A stretch of 64,000 bases of DNA. It comes from Candidatus Cloacimonadota bacterium. GTDB lineage: Bacteria; Cloacimonadota; Cloacimonadia; JGIOTU-2. Shown here one piece after another: positions 2,463 through 51,965 of this stretch. Position numbers and translations under genes: made by a program. The DNA lies in contig JAUWMT010000010.1 of NCBI GenBank assembly GCA_030613025.1, forward strand, positions 1-64,000. The letters are read 5' to 3'. The stretch's first letter is position 1. The number at the start of each line of letters is the position of its first letter. Below the pieces are notes generated by a model. The model saw only the letters and a list, made by a program, of their open reading frames with translations. It was not told where the DNA came from and ran no database searches.

Positions 2463-3449
2463 ATGAAAAAGATTTTAGTTACAGGTGCTGATGGATTTAT
2501 TGGAAGTCATCTTACAGAAGAATTAGTAAAACAGGGCTACAGTGTTAAAGCGTTTGTATATTATAACTCATTTAATTCCTGGGGTTGGATTGATACTTTT
2601 CCAAAAGAATTAAAAGATAAAATTGAAATATTTGCTGGAGATATTCGTGATCCTAACGGAGTTAGAGAAGCAATGAAAGGATGCGATATAGTTTTTCATC
2701 TTGCTGCTTTGATTGGCATACCGTTTAGTTATCATTCGCCAGATAGTTATATAGATACTAACATAAAAGGAGCATTAAACATTTTACAAGCAACAAGGTT
2801 ATTAAAAACAGAAAGAGTTCTGGTTACTTCAACTTCCGAAGTTTATGGCACAGCTCAATATGTTCCGATTGATGAAAAACATCCTTATCAAGGTCAATCT
2901 CCTTATAGTGCAACAAAAATTGGAGCAGATAGACTTGCTGAATCTTTTTATCGTTCTTTTGAGCTTCCAGTTACGATTGTAAGACCTTTTAACACATATG
3001 GTCCGAGACAGTCAGCTCGTGCGGTAATACCAACAATTATTATACAGCTTCTTAAAGGATATAAAGAAATAAAACTAGGTGATCTTTTACCAACAAGAGA
3101 TCTGGTTTTCGTTAAGGACGTCGTTAATGGATTCATTGAAATAGCAAAATCAGATAAAACCGTTGGAGAAGAAATTAATATTGCTACACAATCGGAAATA
3201 TCTATTGGAGATTTAGCAAGAAAATTAATTAAAATGATTAATCCGGAAGCGAAAATAAAACAAGATAAGAACCGAATTAGACCTGAAAAAAGCGAAGTGT
3301 ATAGATTATTTGGATCTAATAAAAAACTGATAAAGCTAACAAACTGGAAACAGAAATATTCACTCGATGAGGGATTATTGAAAACCATTGAATGGTTTAA
3401 AAAACCAGACAACTTAAAAGGATACAAACCAGAGATTTATAATGTATAA
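2463..3449 (+). CDS. NAD-dependent 4,6-dehydratase, LegB-like
   Basis: VTGADGFIGSHL, STSEVYGTAQYVPIDEKHPYQGQSPYSATK, VRPFNTYGPRQSARAVIPT; followed by a LegC-type aminotransferase. Confidence 0.8.
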   Translation: MKKILVTGADGFIGSHLTEELVKQGYSVKAFVYYNSFNSWGWIDTFPKELKDKIEIFAGDIRDPNGVREAMKGCDIVFHLAALIGIPFSYHSPDSYIDTNIKGALNILQATRLLKTERVLVTSTSEVYGTAQYVPIDEKHPYQGQSPYSATKIGADRLAESFYRSFELPVTIVRPFNTYGPRQSARAVIPTIIIQLLKGYKEIKLGDLLPTRDLVFVKDVVNGFIEIAKSDKTVGEEINIATQSEISIGDLARKLIKMINPEAKIKQDKNRIRPEKSEVYRLFGSNKKLIKLTNWKQKYSLDEGLLKTIEWFKKPDNLKGYKPEIYNV

Positions 3450-3480
3450 TCGTGAGTCGTGATTTGTAATTTGATAATTA
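3446..3480 (+). repeat. Left short-word arm of four-helix-bundle element 1
   Basis: ataatcgtgagtcgtgatttgtaatttgataatta; approximately complementary to 3854-3890. Confidence 0.6.
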
Positions 3481-3495
3481 AACAGAAGGTTTGTT

Positions 3496-3855
3496 TTGAA
3501 AACACATAAAGATTTAGATGTTTGGAAGAAGAGTATAGATTTTGTTACTAAAGTATATAACCTTACAGACAAGTTTCCAAACAATGAAAAATTTGGTATT
3601 GTAAGTCAGATTAGGAGAGCAGCAGTCTCTATTCCTTCGAATATTGCAGAGGGTTCTGCACGAAATTCTAAAAAAGAACTAGTACAATTTTTATATGTTT
3701 CTTTAGGTTCTGCTGCTGAATTAGAAACACAGCTAATAATTTCAGAAAAATTGAAATACATAGATAATTTGGATGTTTTAAATGATCTAAACGATATACA
3801 AAAAATGATAATGGGATTAATAAAATATTTACGTAATAAAGAATTTAAAAAATGA
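3496..3855 (+). CDS. Four-helix-bundle protein (23S rRNA-IVP / Avd-like), copy 1
   Basis: DLDVWKKSIDFVTKVYNLTDKFPNNEKFGIVSQIRRAAVSIPSNIAEGSARNSKKELVQFL; IVP family hallmarks. Confidence 0.93.
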   Translation: MKTHKDLDVWKKSIDFVTKVYNLTDKFPNNEKFGIVSQIRRAAVSIPSNIAEGSARNSKKELVQFLYVSLGSAAELETQLIISEKLKYIDNLDVLNDLNDIQKMIMGLIKYLRNKEFKK

Positions 3856-5042
3856 TTAATCACAAATTACGAATTACCAATTACGATTTTATTCCTCTTT
3901 CTGTTCCCTCAATTCAGGGCAACGAATGGAAATACATAAAAGAATGTCTTGATACAGAGTGGGTATCATCAGCAGGAAAGTATGTTGCTCTTTTTGAGCA
4001 GAAAATTTGCGAATTTACAGGAGCAAAATATGCTGTTGCTTGTGTAAACGGAACTGCTGCCCTTCATATTTCTTTATTATTAGCAGGCGTAAAACCTGAT
4101 GACGAAGTAATTGTTCCAACTCTAACTTTTATCTCTCCAATAAATGTTGTACGATATTGTAACGCATATCCAGTTTTTATGGATGCTGATGATTTTTATA
4201 ATATAGATGAAGAAAAAACGATTCAGTTTATCGAAAAAGAGACAATATTTAGGAATGGATTTACTTATAATAAAAAAACAAATAGGAAAATTTCCGCAAT
4301 TATTCCTGTGCATATTTTTGGTAATGCCTGTAACTTGGAAAAGCTTGTTCCAATTTGTAAAGAACGAAATATTAAAATAATAGAGGACGCCACAGAAAGT
4401 CTCGGAACAAAATATACCAAAGGTAAATTCTCCGGAAAACACACTGGTACAATTGGAGATTTGGGCTGTTTATCTTTTAATGGAAATAAAATCATTACCA
4501 CCGGTGGTGGGGGAATGATTCTAACAGATAATGAAGATTATGCAAAAAAAGCAAAATATTTAACTACCCAGGCAAAAGACGATGAAATTAGATATGTTCA
4601 CAATGAAATTGGTTATAACTACCGATTAACAAATATACAGGCTGCAATGGGAGTAGCCCAACTTGAACAACTACCTGAATATTTGAATATAAAGAAAAAT
4701 AATTATAATTTATATAAAGATGAAATTGACATAATTCCCGGATTACATATTGTGGAAACACCGGATTATGCAAATAATAATCATTGGATGTATCCACTTA
4801 AGATTGATCAAAATGTATATAACAAAGATAGAGAAGAATTAATGAGTTTCCTATCTGAAAAGAAAATCCAAACGCGACATGTTTGGTATCTTAATCATCT
4901 ACAAAAACCCTATAAAGACTGTCAGAAATATAAAATTGAAAATGCTATCAAATTATGGGAAAAGACATTGAATATACCCTGTTCGGTGAATTTAAATGAA
5001 AATGAAATTAAAAAAGTTTGTGAGGTATTAAATGAAAGATAG
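3852..5042 (+). CDS. LegC-family PLP aminotransferase
   Basis: FIPLSVPSIQGNEWKYIKECLDTEWVSSAGKYVALFE...SFNGNKIITTGGGGMI with PLP lysine; N-terminal leader MINHKLRITNYD is encoded by the repeat arm. Confidence 0.88.
   Translation: MINHKLRITNYDFIPLSVPSIQGNEWKYIKECLDTEWVSSAGKYVALFEQKICEFTGAKYAVACVNGTAALHISLLLAGVKPDDEVIVPTLTFISPINVVRYCNAYPVFMDADDFYNIDEEKTIQFIEKETIFRNGFTYNKKTNRKISAIIPVHIFGNACNLEKLVPICKERNIKIIEDATESLGTKYTKGKFSGKHTGTIGDLGCLSFNGNKIITTGGGGMILTDNEDYAKKAKYLTTQAKDDEIRYVHNEIGYNYRLTNIQAAMGVAQLEQLPEYLNIKKNNYNLYKDEIDIIPGLHIVETPDYANNNHWMYPLKIDQNVYNKDREELMSFLSEKKIQTRHVWYLNHLQKPYKDCQKYKIENAIKLWEKTLNIPCSVNLNENEIKKVCEVLNER
3854..3890 (+). repeat. Right short-word arm of four-helix-bundle element 1
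   Basis: gattaatcacaaattacgaattaccaattacgatttt; reverse complement resembles 3446-3480. Confidence 0.6.
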
Positions 5043-33936: not shown

Positions 33937-33984
33937 TAGTAAGTAGTAAAAGATAGTAAGTAGTATGCAGTAGTAAGTAAGTGG
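33937..33984 (+). repeat. Left short-word arm of four-helix-bundle element 2
   Basis: tagtaagtagtaaaagatagtaagtagtatgcagtagtaagtaagtgg. Confidence 0.75.
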
Positions 33985-34379
33985 TGAATAAGATGAGCGA
34001 GAAGACAATATATAGAGGTTTTAGAGATTTACTTGTTTATCAGAAATCTTATAAATTAGTATTGAGGATTTTTGCAATTACTAAAAATTTTCCAATAGAA
34101 GAAAAATACTCCTTAACTGACCAAATTCGCAGATCGTCCAGGTCGGTTCCAGCTAATTTGGCTGAAGCTTGGGCAAAGAGACGTTATGTTAAAGCTTTTG
34201 TGAATAAGCTTAGTGATTGCATGGGAGAAGCTTCAGAAACTGAAGTTTGGATTGATATGTCCTTTGATTTAAAATATATTGATTCAAATGAACATTCAGA
34301 ATTGCTTAATGATTGTATCGAAGTTGAAAAAATGCTCTCAGGTATGATCAAAAATCCAGATAAATTTTGTCATAAATAA
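33981..34379 (+). CDS. Four-helix-bundle protein (IVP / Avd-like), copy 2
   Basis: FRDLLVYQKSYKLVLRIFAITKNFPIEEKYSLTDQIRRSSRSVPANLAEAWAKRRYVKAFVNKLSDCMGEASETEVWIDMSFDLKYID. Confidence 0.94.
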   Translation: MVNKMSEKTIYRGFRDLLVYQKSYKLVLRIFAITKNFPIEEKYSLTDQIRRSSRSVPANLAEAWAKRRYVKAFVNKLSDCMGEASETEVWIDMSFDLKYIDSNEHSELLNDCIEVEKMLSGMIKNPDKFCHK

Positions 34380-34410
34380 CTTTAGTTTTACATAAAACAA
34401 ATAATTGTTT

Positions 34411-34440
34411 CTACTTACTCCCTACTACTTACTCATTACT
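34411..34440 (+). repeat. Right short-word arm of four-helix-bundle element 2
   Basis: ctacttactccctactacttactcattact; reverse complement agtaatgagtaagtagtagggagtaagtag matches the left-arm word. Confidence 0.75.
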
Positions 34441-34448
34441 AAAAAAAA

Positions 34449-35987
34449 ATGAAAAAACTAATTTTACTACTTATCTCATTCCTTTGCACGAGTCTCGCCT
34501 TTGCAGATTTCACTGTACCTATGGATGATGAGGTTTACGATTATCTGCAATCAATGGAAATTTTAGGGAAAATCCCATCAATTGCCATATATCCCAACTA
34601 TTATGATCGTATCGAAAATTACCTTTACGATATTGCTAATGAAGGTATTCCAAGAAGCTATAAAAATCTGAATAAAAAATATTTATCATACATGAAATTA
34701 AGTGATGAAGATGGGTTCCATTCAGAAATATTTCCTTTCAAAGAATTACCATGGAAAATATTTAAACCAAAGAGTGTTGTCCCCTCGAGGTCATCATTCA
34801 TATCTTACAAAAAAAATGATCTGAATTTGTTCTCTTCATTTCTACTTGGAATTGAATATGACACCAAAAATAATGATGAGCAGCAGAATCGCACTTATCA
34901 ATATTATGGTCTGGAATTTGGTGGTAACTTTCAAAAGAATCTGGGGCTATATACACGATATAGAAAAGGTAATTATACGGGTGATTACGACTTCATTCAT
35001 GAAGACCCCTATATCCATCAGAGTGGTGGAATGGATCGTAAAGTAACCGTTTATTCCGAATTTGATTTCAAAAATTCTATACTAAACCTATCAATTGGCT
35101 ACAGCAATTTTGAGATAGGAAAGAACATTACATCATCGGTTATTTTAAATGGAATGACAAATCCTTTTGGGTATTTCAAATACTATAAAAAGATTGGGAG
35201 ATTTAACTTCCTTGCATTTAATTCTCAACTCACAACAGACAGTGTGACAGTTTCATCTGAATTTCCGATTAAATCATTCTCTTTGCAAACACTCTATTAT
35301 CAGGATGATAGATTTTTGCTTGGAATTGGTCAATCGGTCATTTATGGAAACAAGACGATCGATCTTGCCTATTGGACACCTCTTATGGTTTTTAAGCTGA
35401 TAGATTTTAAGAATCATAATCGTGATAATGAATTTGTGTTCGCATATTCAATATGGAGACCTGTAGATGGTTTGATGCACTATTTTAATTTTTTCGTGGA
35501 TGATCTTAAAAAAAGCCAGTTATTGACAAAGGATTGGCTCACTAATTTTGCATTGCAAACAGGATTGATGTATCAGCTATCCTCATTACCTTTAAGATTA
35601 TCTGCGGAATGTACCGCAGTCGGACCCGTAACATATACCCACAGAGATTATGAGCTTGTTTACTCACAAGATAACATGCTTTTGGGATATGTGTACGGCG
35701 CGAATCTCTTAAATTTTGCATTTCAGATAAATTATATGAATCCCTATTTTGTAGCTGAAATTCAGTATGAAAATATGCAACAGGGAAGTAATGGAAGTGA
35801 CCCATTCAGTTGTGATACGGATCCAGCTGAGTTTCTTTCCGGAGAATTCACCCGCACACAAAGATTAAGCGGGAAAATATCATTCTATTTGAATCAGCAC
35901 CTAAAAGCGAAGGTTCAATACGCTCTGATCAATAGGAATAATATAACAACAAATTATCTCTTTTCCGGATTGGAATTTCAATTCTAA
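34449..35987 (+). CDS. Wzi-like capsule-assembly outer-membrane beta-barrel protein
   Basis: Signal peptide MKKLILLLISFLCTSLAFADF, repetitive amphipathic strands, C-terminal aromatic GLEFQF*; end of polysaccharide locus. Confidence 0.7.
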   Translation: MKKLILLLISFLCTSLAFADFTVPMDDEVYDYLQSMEILGKIPSIAIYPNYYDRIENYLYDIANEGIPRSYKNLNKKYLSYMKLSDEDGFHSEIFPFKELPWKIFKPKSVVPSRSSFISYKKNDLNLFSSFLLGIEYDTKNNDEQQNRTYQYYGLEFGGNFQKNLGLYTRYRKGNYTGDYDFIHEDPYIHQSGGMDRKVTVYSEFDFKNSILNLSIGYSNFEIGKNITSSVILNGMTNPFGYFKYYKKIGRFNFLAFNSQLTTDSVTVSSEFPIKSFSLQTLYYQDDRFLLGIGQSVIYGNKTIDLAYWTPLMVFKLIDFKNHNRDNEFVFAYSIWRPVDGLMHYFNFFVDDLKKSQLLTKDWLTNFALQTGLMYQLSSLPLRLSAECTAVGPVTYTHRDYELVYSQDNMLLGYVYGANLLNFAFQINYMNPYFVAEIQYENMQQGSNGSDPFSCDTDPAEFLSGEFTRTQRLSGKISFYLNQHLKAKVQYALINRNNITTNYLFSGLEFQF

Positions 35988-36023
35988 TGGGTACAAGGTA
36001 AAGGGTATTGGGTATTAGGTTTT
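35988..36023 (+). repeat. Left short-word arm of four-helix-bundle element 3
   Basis: tgggtacaaggtaaagggtattgggtattaggtttt; complementary in word content to 36216-36306. Confidence 0.6.
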
Positions 36024-36047
36024 TAATACTCACGATTCTATCATAAT

Positions 36048-36245
36048 ATGGGAAATTTTAGAAAACTTGAAGTTTGGCAATTAGCCATGGATTTGGTTAT
36101 TTACATTTATGAGATAACGAATTCTGGGAAGTTTTCTAGAGACTATGATCTGAGAAGTCAAATAAGGAGGAAAGCAGAAAGCAGAAAGCAGAAAGCAGAA
36201 ATCAGAAAGAGATCAAAAACCCAGCACCTAAAACCCAGCACCTAA
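36048..36245 (+). pseudogene. Four-helix-bundle protein (IVP), copy 3, truncated at QIRR by a repeat array
   Basis: MGNFRKLEVWQLAMDLVIYIYEITNSGKFSRDYDLRSQIRR then KAESRKQKAEIRK encoded by AGCAGAAA repeats. Confidence 0.85.
36170..36210 (+). repeat. AGCAGAAA short tandem array
   Basis: aaagcagaaagcagaaagcagaaagcagaaatcagaaag. Confidence 0.9.
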
Positions 36246-36306
36246 AACCCAAAACCTAAAACCCAAAACCTAAAACCACAGCACCTAAAACCCCAACCCC
36301 AATCCT
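36216..36306 (+). repeat. AAAACCCAGCACCT / AAAACCCAAAACCT short-word array
   Basis: aaaacccagcacctaaaacccagcacctaaaacccaaaacctaaaacccaaaacctaaaacc... Confidence 0.9.
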
Positions 36307-36308
36307 AA

Positions 36309-36725
36309 ATGCCCATTAATAAGAATGTTTTCCGAATTCTCTTCTGGCTTTCCCTTGCAATAATTTCAATTGCTTCAATCATACCTCAATTTTTTCCGCA
36401 ATATGTTAAAGTTTTTCCTGATTTTTCATTCCGCTTAGATTATGTTCTTCATTTTTTCAGTTATTTTTTATTAGCTTCTTTCCTTACAATCTGGAAATTT
36501 TCAAAGGCTAAAAAGTATAAATTTATTTTATTTATCATAATTTATGGAATCATCATGAGTTCAATTTTTGAGATCATCCAATATTTTCTTCAATCCAGAA
36601 CATTCAATCCTTATGATATGCTTAGCAATTTTTCCGGATTCATTATTGGGCTCATGTTGAGTATGGTGCTTTTAATCATGAAAAGAAAAATAAATCACAA
36701 GAATAAATTTGCTGAATTGCAATGA
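36309..36725 (+). CDS. VanZ-like family protein
   Basis: LDYVLHFFSYFLLASFLTIWK...ISSIFEIIQYFLQSRTFNPYDMLSNFSGFIIGLMLSMV pattern (4 TM, VanZ-like). Confidence 0.8.
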   Translation: MPINKNVFRILFWLSLAIISIASIIPQFFPQYVKVFPDFSFRLDYVLHFFSYFLLASFLTIWKFSKAKKYKFILFIIIYGIIMSSIFEIIQYFLQSRTFNPYDMLSNFSGFIIGLMLSMVLLIMKRKINHKNKFAELQ

Positions 36726-36806
36726 AATGATGCATTTTAACTATAAACTTGAAGATTTCATAAACCAATCAATTCCCCATATCTTCTCAAACCACAGCCC
36801 AATACT

Positions 36807-36965
36807 AAATTTTTAGCAGGTGAAATCAGCAGAATACAAAATATTGTAGCTTCGATAAATTATAATTTCACACCCGAATTGCAGTTTCATCTCAGGTATG
36901 AGCATGAGAATAGAGATGGTATGGTGAAGAATTATGTATATTCGGGAATAGAAGTAAAATATTAG
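36807..36965 (+). pseudogene. C-terminal remnant of a second Wzi-like barrel
   Basis: KFLAGEISRIQNIVASINYNFTPELQFHLRYEHENRDGMVKNYVYSGIEVKY* parallels FLSGEFTRTQRLSGKISFYLNQHLKAKVQYALINRNNITTNYLFSGLEFQF* of 34449-35987. Confidence 0.75.
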
Positions 36966-36966
36966 T

Positions 36967-37080
36967 AAAGGGAATAGGTGCTTGGTGATGGGTACAAGGT
37001 ATTGGGTTTTGGGGTAGGACAATAATAGACTGGGAGAGGAGGAGACTGGGAGACTTTGAGAGATTGAGAGAAGATGAGAA
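36967..37080 (+). repeat. Solo short-word arrays (GGGTACAAGGTATTGGG and GACTGGGAGA words)
   Basis: gggaataggtgcttggtgatgggtacaaggtattgggttttgggg followed by gactgggagaggaggagactgggagactttgagagattgagag; first word array recurs at 40144-40200. Confidence 0.8.
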
Positions 37081-37096
37081 ATAATAAAAAAAGGCT

Positions 37097-37251
37097 TGTC
37101 ATCCCAGTTCACCCTGTTAAATCCCCCTACCCTGTGGAATAATACTTTGAATTAAAATCTACGATTTAATTCCAAAGGGTGAAGGAAAATAGGAGATTTT
37201 ATTTAACAGGGTTGAATAGAAAAGAAATATTCAACGGGATAAATTCTTGAG
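37097..37251. repeat. ~155-bp palindromic MITE/REP-like repeat, copy A
   Basis: tgtcatcccagttcaCCCTGTTAAATcccc...tttgaattaaaatctacgatttaattccaaa...ATTTAACAGGGttgaatagaaaagaaatattcaac; near-identical copies at 38111 and 41214. Confidence 0.9.
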
Positions 37252-37325
37252 CACATTCGTTTCACTCAGTAGAAACTCCGTGAAGTTTACAATCCCGATT
37301 TATCGGGGAATCTCACAAAAACTGA

Positions 37326-37430
37326 TTGTCATTCTTGAGGAGCGCAGCGACGAATAATCTCCCGAAAACATTAATCTATCCTCTTTGGAGATTCTTCATC
37401 GGGAATAAATTCACTCTTCGAGGATGACAA
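37326..37430. repeat. TTGTCATTCTTGAGGAGCGCAGCGACGAA...TTCGAGGATGACAA inverted repeat unit
   Basis: TTGTCATTCTTGAGG at the left, TTCGAGGATGACAA at the right; left word repeated at 37459. Confidence 0.8.
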
Positions 37431-37566
37431 CTAAGTGTGAATGATAATAAAAAAAGGATTGTCATTCTTGAGGAGCGCAGCGACGAAGAATCTCACAGAG
37501 TGTGAATCAATTCTTATAGCGAAATCCTTACTATTTCACTGGGATTACAATAAATGATTAAATGAT

Positions 37567-37866
37567 ATGGTACTTACTAAAACCTATTATGTTTACATAA
37601 TGACCAACAATTCAAAAACTCTTTATACGGGTGTAACAAATAATCTTGAAAGAAGAGTGTTTGAACATAAACATGGTTCTGTAAAAGGTTTTACTAAAAA
37701 GTACAACATTGACCAGTTAGTATACTATGATTTCTGTCCTGATATTAATGAGGCGATTAAAAGAGAGAAGCAAATCAAGGGTTGGTTAAGAAATAGAAAG
37801 ATTGAACTCGTTGAAAGAGATAATCCAGAATGGAAAGATCTAAGTGAAGGTTGGTTTGATGAATAG
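37567..37866 (+). CDS. Standalone GIY-YIG nuclease-domain protein
   Basis: TYYVYIMTNNSKTLYTGVTNNLERRVFEHKHGSVKGFTKKYNIDQLVYYDFCPDINEAIKREKQIKGWLRNRKIELV. Confidence 0.95.
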   Translation: MVLTKTYYVYIMTNNSKTLYTGVTNNLERRVFEHKHGSVKGFTKKYNIDQLVYYDFCPDINEAIKREKQIKGWLRNRKIELVERDNPEWKDLSEGWFDE

Positions 37867-38110
37867 CATGATAAATAAGGTTGATTCTCATAAAAAAAAA
37901 TTGTCATCCCAGTTGAATAGAAAAGAAATATTCAACAGGATAAATTCTGGAGGAGCACATTCGTTTTGCTCAGTATAAACTCCGCGAAGTTTACAATCCC
38001 GATTTATCGGGGAATCTCCCGAAAACATTAATTTATCTTACTGGGAGATCCTTCACTCACTTCGTTCGTTCGAGGATGACAAATAAGTGTGAATGATAAT
38101 AAAAAAAAAT

Positions 38111-38251
38111 TGTCATCCCAGTTCACCCTGTTAAATCCCCCTACCCTGTGGAATAATACTTTGAATTAAAATCTACGATTTAATTCCAAAGGGTGAAGGA
38201 AAATAGGAGATTTTATTTAACAGGGTTGAATAGATAAGAAAGATTCAACCC
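38111..38251. repeat. MITE/REP-like palindromic repeat, copy B
   Basis: Near-identical to 37097-37251. Confidence 0.9.
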
Positions 38252-38311
38252 AGATTAAATATAATAAGATTTAACAAGGCAAGCGGGACAAGCGTCAACG
38301 AACAATAAAGA

Positions 38312-38336
38312 ATTAGCAACGAACAAACACTAACAA
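38312..38336 (+). repeat. Direct repeat left of AlbA_2 gene
   Basis: attagcaacgaacaaacactaacaa; 24/25 identical to 40081-40105. Confidence 0.8.
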
Positions 38337-38504
38337 ATAAAAGTAAATTAAAAACAGAATTATCTCCCAGGTATATATTATGTTAAATATTTCAGAAAGA
38401 ATAAAAAAAGGGGAAAATCGCACTCTGGAATTTAAACGAGAAGTGCCGGATTCACTTCATAATATTTTAAAAACCATTGTATCTTTTGCCAATGATGCTG
38501 GTTC

Positions 38505-38535
38505 GGGAGTCGGATGTCGGAAGTCTGAGGTCGGA
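38505..38535 (+). repeat. Left short-word arm of four-helix-bundle element 4 (GTCGGAAGTC word)
   Basis: gggagtcggatgtcggaagtctgaggtcgga. Confidence 0.7.
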
Positions 38536-38559
38536 TAGTGAAGGGAAAGAATTGAGATT

Positions 38560-38925
38560 ATGATAAAGTCAGTAAAAGATTTAAAAGTATATAGAATTTC
38601 ATATAAATTAGCAATGGAGATTTTTGAATTAGCTAAGTGTTTTCCAAAAGAAGAGAAGTATAGTTTAACAGATCAGGTGATAAGATCTTCAAGATCGGTA
38701 GCAATAAATATTCGTGAAGGTTTTGCGAAAAGAAAATATGAAAAATTATTTATAAGACATTTAATTGATTCTTCAGGTTCATCGGATGAAACAAGAGGTT
38801 GGCTTGATTTTTCTTTAGATTGTAAATATATATCTGAGAAAGAACATGAATATTTTGATAAAAATTATGACCATGTAAATGCAATGTTGTATAAATTAAG
38901 TAGTAATTGGCAAAATTTTAAATAA
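38560..38925 (+). CDS. Four-helix-bundle protein (IVP / Avd-like), copy 4
   Basis: VKDLKVYRISYKLAMEIFELAKCFPKEEKYSLTDQVIRSSRSVAINIREGFAKRKYEKLFIRHLIDSSGSSDETRGWLDFSLDCKYIS. Confidence 0.94.
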   Translation: MIKSVKDLKVYRISYKLAMEIFELAKCFPKEEKYSLTDQVIRSSRSVAINIREGFAKRKYEKLFIRHLIDSSGSSDETRGWLDFSLDCKYISEKEHEYFDKNYDHVNAMLYKLSSNWQNFK

Positions 38926-38940
38926 TATGTAACTATCTTT

Positions 38941-38974
38941 TCTCTGTCTTCCGTCTTCCGCCCTCTGTCTTCCC
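38941..38974 (+). repeat. Right short-word arm of four-helix-bundle element 4
   Basis: tctctgtcttccgtcttccgccctctgtcttccc; reverse complement gggaagacagagggcggaagacggaagacagaga resembles the left arm only loosely. Confidence 0.6.
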
Positions 38975-40080
38975 TGGTGTTCAGAAACCTTATTACTTGC
39001 AAAGAGAGGGGTTAGAAAATGGTGTTTATATCCGCATAGGTTCAACTAATAAAAAAGCTGATGCATCCATAATAAGTGAATTACGAAGACAAAACCTCAA
39101 TCTGTCCTATGATGAAAAAGTATATCATCAACAATCTTGTAAATATCTTTCAAAGGAGCTTATAAAGAATTTTGCAAATAAATATGGAGATGCAGAGAGA
39201 GCACCTCTTGATATCCTGATAAGAGATAAATATGTGCAAAAAACAAATAGCAGTTGCTATCCCACCGTTGGTGCTGTATTGTTATTTTCTGAAACATTAC
39301 TACCTGAATTTGAATATGCCTCCATTACTTTAAATCGATATGAGGGTACAGATAGAGCAAATCTGGAATCGACAATTCAGATAACGCATGGGGGTTGTTA
39401 AAGATCGTTCCCATTGTGATCAATGAATTGAAAAATATTCTTTGGATGAATATAAAGATCAAAAAAATTGAGAGAGAGGATCAATTAGAAATACCAGAGC
39501 TTTCAATTAGAGAAGCAGTGATAAATGCAATATGCCATAGAGATTATTCAATCATTGGCTCGTCTACAAAAATTGATATATTTAATGATAGGTTAGAAAT
39601 TATAAGTCCCGGCAATTTACCGGTTGGTATTACTTTGGATGAACTTGGACAAGGTGCTTCAGAGATTCGTAATAAATTAATAGCAAAAGCATTTCGAAGG
39701 TTTGGTTATATGGAAAAATTGGGAACTGGGATTTCCAGAATGTTATCATTGTGTCATAAAGCTGGAGTTCCTCTACCAATTTTTGAAGAACCAGGACGTT
39801 ATTTCAAAGTAACTTTTTTCAGAAGAAAAGATATAAATATCGAGTTTGAAAATAATATTATTGAACAGATTAAAAAATCAAAAGAGATGAAAGCAAAAGA
39901 ACTTTCTAATATTTTGAATGTTCATCCTAATACTATATTAAATTATTTAAGAGTTATGATTGATAATGGGATCATAGAGAAAATCGACAAAGGACCAAAT
40001 GTGAGATACAGATTGAAATTGTGAGATTTGTGAGATTGTGAGATCGATGTGAGATGATAGTTTTTTGAGCAACGAATAAA

Positions 40081-40143: not shown

Positions 40144-40200
40144 AGGGAATAGGTGCTTGGTTATGGGTACAAGGTATTAGGTTTTGGGTGATGGGTATAT
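40144..40200 (+). repeat. Solo short-word array (GGGTACAAGGTATTAGG)
   Basis: agggaataggtgcttggttatgggtacaaggtattaggttttgggtgatgggtata; near-copy of 36967-37011. Confidence 0.8.
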
Positions 40201-51352: not shown

Positions 51353-51376
51353 GAAAGATTCGGTTCCTTTTATTTA

Positions 51377-51849
51377 TAAGTGGGTCGATATACTTAAAAT
51401 CTGAATATCCAATATCCATCTCCCGTAATAAATGGGACAATTTTGTTGAAGGTTGAATTAGTTGTGCCTTTACTATTATCTTCAACCACAATTCGGTTAC
51501 CTTGTGGATGGTTGAAAACCTCCGCAATGGTAATCCGCTCACAACCATTGCGAAGATCAAGACCATTCGCAAGGTTTCAGAGTGTTTCAGCACTTTGTGC
51601 CTCTCCGTAATTTGCAGCGGGTGAAATTCCGCTTAGTATTTGAGAAAAGATGTGTTTACCTTCTTTTGTTTCAGGTAGCTGTTCAGAAACGTTAATAATT
51701 TTAACCGCATAATCACTAAGACGTTCCTGTAAATCGAACTTCTTTTGATTATTTTCTTTATTCTTTTCTTTTTCACTCATTTTAATTTTTACTTCATCAT
51801 TGGATATTCCGTGTTGGATATTGGATATTATTTCCAACTTACCCACTTA
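51377..51849 (-). mobile_element. Four-helix-bundle element 5 with inverted short-word arms; ORF broken
   Basis: Gene parts: FDLQERLSDYAVKIINVSEQLPETKEGKHIFSQILSGISPAANYGEAQSAE (51577-51846) and ELWLKIIVKAQLIQPSTKLSHLLREMD (51345-51593). Arms GAATATCCAATATCC (51403-51417) vs GGATATTGGATATTA (51816-51830), outer TAAGTGGGT / ACCCACTTA. Confidence 0.82.
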
Positions 51850-51965
51850 ATTCTTCAAATAGTCAAAGATTTTTTATCCATTCTCATATCCTCGTTTCAT
51901 TTCTTCGAAACTCTGATTTGGTGAACTCATAGTAGTTTTTATGTGTACAACACTACTTTGAGCTG

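Follow-up and report, generated by a model that had tools for sequence, protein, structure and literature searches.

The window analysed here is a stretch of 64,000 nt from a Candidatus Cloacimonadota bacterium (GCA_030613025.1, contig JAUWMT010000010.1, positions 1-64,000; host genome 2.83 Mb in 98 contigs). It holds five loci, El.1 to El.5, of one small gene family, S23/IVP (TIGR02436/PF05635), flanked by inverted arrays of short words. All five loci described in the initial annotation were confirmed to be present and their S23 domains were identified. Full domains exceeding the PF05635 cut-off were found at El.1, El.2 and El.4, and the genes of El.3 and El.5 are broken (Table 1). A profile search with TIGR02436 placed the family at 26 positions in the host genome, all listed ones above the curated cut-off, and S23 is present in 37 of the 41 genomes searched. 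S23/IVP proteins are, to our knowledge, common and without known function. L and G numbers denote loci and genomes, respectively.

Table 1. The five S23 loci of the window, their word arms and adjoining features.
Feature	Position	Strand	Evidence or remark
Epimerase gene upstream of El.1	2463-3449	+	El.1 5′ arm begins at its stop codon
El.1 5′ word arm atcgtgagtcgtgatttgtaattt	3449-3472	+	pairs with 3864-3887, score 17.0
El.1 S23/IVP gene, intact	3496-3855	+	PF05635 E=1.5e-38; TIGR02436 E=5.9e-38
El.1 3′ word arm	3864-3887	+	in-frame first codons of downstream aminotransferase open reading frame
El.2 5′ word arm TAGTAAGTAGT...	33937-33985	+	sequence; pairing score
El.2 S23/IVP gene, intact	33981-34379	+	PF05635 E=2.1e-34; bAvd PF22296 E=3.8e-9, below its cut-off
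El.2 3′ word arm	34411-34439	+	sequence; pairing score
El.3 5′ word arm GGGTATTGGGTATTAGG	35989-36023	+	90% complementary
El.3 S23 gene, truncated after ~43 residues	36048-36182	+	hidden Markov model match to profile 1-43
GCAGAAA heptamer array, in place of the missing part of the El.3 gene	36169-36209	+	
El.3 3′ word arm AAAACCCAGCACCTAAAACCC...	36216-36294	+	sequence
Solo word array without S23 GGTACAAGGTATTGGGTTTTGGGG	36991-37018	+	
El.4 5′ host-gene piece (AlbA_2-like, ATP-binding type)	38380-38508	+	88% identical to intact gene L215
El.4 5′ word arm GTCGGATGTCGGAAGTC	38509-38536	+	weak pairing, 9.5
El.4 S23/IVP gene, intact	38560-38925	+	PF05635 E=1.1e-30
El.4 3′ word arm CTGTCTTCCGTCTTCCG	38944-38974	+	sequence
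El.4 3′ host-gene piece (HATPase_c_4)	38975-40024	+	profile match; comparison with L215
Second solo word array, same family, without S23	40166-40199	+	
El.5, AATATCC-family element, broken S23 gene (N-terminal half only)	51361-51864	-	arms 51798-51829 (5′) / 51399-51420 (3′)
El.5 target duplication AATCTTT	51354-51360 and 51865-51871	-	found by script

Each element spans about 0.45-0.6 kb. A G-rich array of 7-9-nt words forms its 5′ end, a single S23/IVP gene follows, and a C-rich array repeating that word on the opposite strand closes it. Among elements with clear arms a word period of 7 is commonest, followed by 8 and 9; it is the best period in 39 of the 58 S23 elements with a clear one, and where both arms have a clear period the two agree (19/19). 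Of 140 elements, 115 have a G-rich 5′ arm and 11 a C-rich one, nine of the latter being copies of the AATATCC family (see below) and one a member of the divergent L017-L019 family. Constant gene family and geometry with a different word at each locus had been claimed for the window. The shared layout and the separate words of El.1 to El.4 stand. The broken genes of El.3 and El.5, the location of El.4 as a replacement in a host gene, the opposite polarity of the El.5 family and its word, AATATCC, which is common to at least ten other copies in the host genome, do not fit the claim. Variants of the layout were also seen: at L106, L164, L008 and L119 the order is arm, inverted arm, S23 gene and further arm, resembling a gene-less hairpin beside an element, and L076 and L085 have two or three tandem S23 genes in one locus.

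Pairing of the arms was scored by comparing the 5′ flank with the reverse complement of the 3′ flank of the same locus. The main set comprised 88 S23 loci from the host's class, orthologous sites included, so not all are independent. Mismatched loci, dinucleotide-shuffled flanks and other genes served as controls. The S23 loci reached a median score of 17. Medians were lower in all controls: 8.5 in mismatched loci, 9 in shuffled flanks and 8.5 in a set of 68 small genes of other kinds. The threshold of 16.9, which is the 99th percentile of mismatched-locus pairs in the class set, was exceeded by 51 of the 88 S23 loci and by none of 106 control genes, bearing out beyond chance the proposal that the right flank resembles the reverse complement of the left. 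The p-value for pairing (5e-41) overstates the independent events because the sample holds orthologous sites. Taken singly, El.1 (17.0) and El.2 (17.5) lie above the threshold, El.3 (15) is close to it and El.4 (9.5), rightly named the weakest pair, falls below.

A cross-phylum set of 80 loci was picked by S23 sequence alone from 84,980 species genomes, and 35 of these exceeded the 99th percentile of mismatched pairs. Going by record titles, high scorers belong to Bacteroidota, Geobacter and other Desulfobacterota, Omnitrophota, Gastranaerophilales, Neomarinimicrobiota, Clostridia, Patescibacteria, Planctomycetota, Alphaproteobacteria and Ignavibacteria. Paired arms occur at S23 loci in more than 10 phyla, named cyanobacterial plasmids among them. 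Five of six annotated plasmid loci pass (the set being Nostoc (two), Calothrix, Pseudanabaena, Geminocystis and Riemerella), with arms such as GGGAACAGGGAACAGGG / TGTTCCCTGTTCCCTG. An assembly artefact is therefore an unlikely source of the arms.

The elements occupy a characteristic position in operons. In 102 of 143 cases the element sits between two genes co-directional with S23. Insertion is mostly in operon direction, after the stop codon of the gene upstream and ahead of the ribosome-binding site or start codon of the one that follows. The 5′ arm begins a median of 2.5 nt from the upstream stop codon (within about 20 nt in most), and this codon is often itself part of the word. Stop triplets are twofold denser in the 5′ arm than in the 3′ arm (0.105 vs 0.047 per nt), and start triplets are four times rarer in the 3′ arm (0.018 vs 0.074 per nt). 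At several loci the downstream reading frame runs through the 3′ arm, as in ThiD, a glycosyltransferase and the aminotransferase after El.1. An exception to the co-directional rule is L204, on the Nostoc edaphicum plasmid pNe_5, where an armed S23 gene lies between two ribonucleotide reductase genes on the opposite strand.

Junctions that are filled in some genomes were found empty in relatives. The empty trkH/trkA junction reads 'GGC taaggagataga ATG' in L322 and is also empty in L335, L352-L355 and L357; in L039 and L356 it is filled with word arms and S23. A decarboxylase junction, empty in four genomes (L182, L183, L199 and L202), is filled between stop codon and ribosome-binding site in L036. 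Site K is empty in L222 and filled in L004, L037 and L061, and L223-L225 have kept both arms there with the S23 gene internally deleted. Loss of S23 by internal deletion, with retention of the arms, is frequent. The L012 site of the AATATCC family is empty in five congeners. Most empty junctions are without pre-existing arrays; L354 and L227 retain a short word-like stretch, which may be a relic. These empty sites place the arms inside the inserted unit, and the arms thus belong to a unit that comes and goes. The comparisons with random small genes and with empty sites, both proposed alongside the initial annotation, favoured the element model. For ordinary S23 elements, a target duplication of about 5 bp (TATGA) is suggested at site K and other sites are ambiguous.

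The AATATCC family, to which El.5 belongs, differs in having terminal repeats, 7-8-bp target duplications and reversed arm polarity. Duplications were found by script at L015 (ATAAAATA), at El.5 and at L075, the same site as L016 (ATACAGAAG), and were read by eye at L012 (AAATAAAG) and L020 (AAATAATT). Terminal inverted repeats, target-site duplications and copies with deleted reading frames are features that this family shares with miniature inverted-repeat transposable elements (MITEs) and insertion sequences (IS); ordinary S23 elements differ from MITEs in having no clear target duplication. The IS1595-type transposase profile (PF12762) had no match in the host assembly, again unlike the situation of MITEs, and IS1595 was rejected as the mobiliser of the family on this ground. 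The AATATCC arm contains an inserted hairpin of about 44 nt (CACAGTGTAAT...ATTACACGGGGCAGG) at L015, L021 and L026, with similar short inserts in L023; these could be a second, smaller class of mobile hairpin. At L021, L023, L026 and in the window (51440-51580, minus strand) a shared CTTGCGAATGGTCTTGA... segment, which has inverted words of its own, stands in place of the second half of S23.

Above about 70% S23 identity words are shared, at 25%-60% they are almost unrelated, and below about 60% the word is independent of S23 phylogeny. Recognition of a fixed word by S23 is unsupported, as words are unrelated between proteins of 30-60% identity. One case is a junction upstream of a gene that we take to be of DUF1015 type. 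Within one genus this junction carries a GTCGAG element (G018, G020, G044), a GCGAGAT element (G041; G020 keeps a relic of its left arm) or a GTGAAAAGG-type element (G045, G035), and it is empty in G043 and in the loci L358 and L362. No fewer than three S23 lineages, unrelated and each with its own word, have entered it. Copying of the word from the target site, which the thiC/thiD site had suggested, was rejected because one junction carried several unrelated words. At the sdhA/sdhB junction of Bacteroidota, the S23 lineages are mostly no closer to one another than to those elsewhere and have their own words.

At sites shared by related species, with arm boundaries set by hand, likeness is greater for one arm compared across species (0.67) than for the two arms of one element (0.51). 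On this comparison continuous homogenisation of the two arms was discarded as a general rule; most simply, the arms would originate as a pair and diverge afterwards. An informal look at a few loci gave no clear difference in arm matching between younger and older elements. The gene itself is under purifying selection: dN/dS (nonsynonymous to synonymous rate) was 0.04-0.23 in 13 of 15 pairs, and dS was saturated in the other two.

These data bear on the idea that the hairpin regulates or insulates the operon genes on either side and is maintained by selection on gene expression. Such a use would suit the exact placement between stop codon and ribosome-binding site, the asymmetry of the arms in stop and start codons and the occupation of some sites throughout a genus, but species within a genus differ in whether they have the element, deletion derivatives are common, the arms diverge at shared sites and unrelated words are found at the same junction. 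We consider this explanation highly improbable.

Word arrays and paired arms are not exclusive to S23. Array counts were taken from sampled stretches of the genomes. In G018 many word arrays lack S23 (81 non-coding ones in 400 kb), the three S23-free relatives G019, G033 and G039 have 0-3.3 per 100 kb, and counts vary among S23-bearing relatives. The low counts in this small S23-free sample hint at a link between S23 and the arrays. A similar arrangement surrounds GxxExxY/PDDEXK_3 (PF13366) genes, which are flanked by inverted word arrays at 33 loci with a median score of 16, as against 9 for mismatched pairs. Their words are often near 9 nt (8-10 nt), for example CACGCAGATTTTCGCAGATAAAAAGCGCAGATT, and the loci include L293-L319 and a stretch at 786-828 kb of G018 (L236-L238).

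Heptamers at gene boundaries also have precedents. STRR heptamers of heterocystous cyanobacteria are said to have been described by Mazel in 1990 and Vioque in 1997. The S23 elements, too, have tandem 7-nt units at gene boundaries. Published arrays of this kind are those of GGGNATC in Xanthomonas and Nostoc, which share the strand preference seen here, with inverted pairs in Xanthomonas (PMC4692102), and of TAACTGA in Beggiatoaceae (PMC4679880); they have one word per genome, whereas here there is one per element. In the open-access literature covered, S23 is unmentioned in the main text of both papers.

The inverted arrays could accordingly be primary, as hairpin-forming heptamers spread by replication or repair at operon junctions, with S23 and GxxExxY as captured or incoming cargo. 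The S23-less arrays of G018, the same layout at GxxExxY genes and the 70-75 inverted pairs of Xanthomonas, with the same strand bias near open reading frames (PMC4692102), speak for this order of events. It is harder to reconcile with the scarcity of non-coding arrays in the S23-free genomes (only three), with the fixed strand of S23 relative to arm polarity (115 to 11) and with empty junctions mostly free of earlier arrays, L354 and L227 excepted. We regard it as rather unlikely, though as the most serious of the competing explanations.

Taken as a whole, S23 with its word arms probably constitutes an intervening sequence (IVS)-like mobile element at operon junctions. Several observations weigh against this. 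No transposition or RNA processing was observed, and clear target duplications were found in the El.5 family only. El.4 is no simple insertion; it substitutes for 174 nt of an AlbA_2/HATPase gene, present in the intact relative L215. The likeness of arms at shared sites means that pairing is not continuously renewed, and the stem may be left over from the element's formation. There are word arrays, and some paired arms, that lack S23, and S23-rich genomes can have few free arrays (G012, G025). Because such arrays and arms exist without the gene and GxxExxY genes share the layout, S23 may be cargo.

In the element model, the two arms would be made together from one short word at insertion and would later drift by slippage; this would account for a word common to both arms that close S23 relatives need not share. 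The arms are predicted to pair in the operon mRNA with the S23 gene folded out as a loop, as the initial annotation had proposed. In minimum free energy (MFE) folds, 54 of 60 elements have half or more of their 5′ arm paired to the 3′ arm; the median paired share of the 5′ arm is 83%, and the loop measures about 400 nt. Looping out would re-appose the upstream stop and the downstream start, and insertion could thereby be tolerated, like the stem of the 23S rRNA IVS. The stem may be a substrate for RNase III or a similar enzyme. The S23 protein, a homologue of Avd of diversity-generating retroelements (DGRs), may be the element's own mobility or nucleic-acid-binding factor, and a role in mobility, arm generation or RNA processing is putative.

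The 23S rRNA IVS with an S23/IVP reading frame is known from Coxiella, where it measures 428-444 nt with a stem formed by a 28-bp near-perfect repeat, and from Leptospira (PMC4990558). The elements resemble it in carrying an S23-family reading frame in the loop of a hairpin with complementary ends, in size and in being tolerated by the transcript. They differ from it in lying between protein-coding genes and in having arms of degenerate word arrays that vary between lineages, as opposed to the near-perfect Coxiella stem. The host 23S gene (C53:426-3385) matches the model end to end, none of the 26 S23 places lies within it, and no Rfam match was found in 20 S23 loci. The S23 elements here are not rRNA IVS by location, though the layout is shared; together with the repeated independent insertion this agrees with the earlier view of IVS-like elements outside rRNA genes.

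Kinship to Avd raises another possibility, that S23 partners a reverse transcriptase (RT) as Avd does and that the arms are the cDNA of a DGR-like or telomerase-like reaction. The two proteins belong to a homologous four-helix-bundle family, El.2 matches the bAvd model (below cut-off), and the entries for two S23 relatives of solved structure, 2RLD and 2GSC, each contain five chains, which would suit a pentamer like that of Avd. PF05635 also co-occurs with DGR reverse transcriptases (PMC10053308), and the arms resemble repeated copying of one short word. Unlike in a DGR, no RT lies beside the S23 elements, and template and variable repeats were not seen in the flanks read, no search having been aimed at them. 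RVT_1 was not found in G012 (25 S23) or G009 (33 S23), although there may have been past activity or a divergent polymerase; dependence on RT was rejected on these two S23-rich genomes, and the RT-based origin of the arms is unlikely.

A broader proposal may be put forward tentatively and with some doubt: a class of mobile elements in more than 10 phyla could generate its hairpin ends by copying a very short word again and again, giving each insertion lineage matched arms with a word of its own, with S23 (and separately GxxExxY proteins) performing or assisting the synthesis and 23S rRNA IVS as a special case. S23 has until now been known mainly from rRNA inserts, and the layout suggests an overlooked kind of mobile element because the words differ from insert to insert. 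If an operon-adapted mobile element is indeed at hand, the 23S IVS, the cyanobacterial and xanthomonad heptamers and the origin of Avd become open to joint study. Matched arms with changing words raise a question that can be tested in cultured hosts such as Nostoc or Flavobacteria: by what route two inverted arrays of a single new short word arise in a cell.

Systems of repetitive extragenic palindromes (REP) and their RAYT genes are also comparable in tying small palindromic repeats to a small gene; S23, however, is not a Y1 tyrosine transposase, and the words here are not conserved between elements. Two further features were noted in the window. Both solo arrays have GGTATTGGG-type words and a similar leader, gggaataggtgcttggt. 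Near them, two direct repeats of about 165 bp with palindromes (37071-37235 and 38085-38249) flank a small GIY-YIG nuclease gene (37567-37866), and the whole (37071-38249) is possibly a REP-like unit with its own nuclease.

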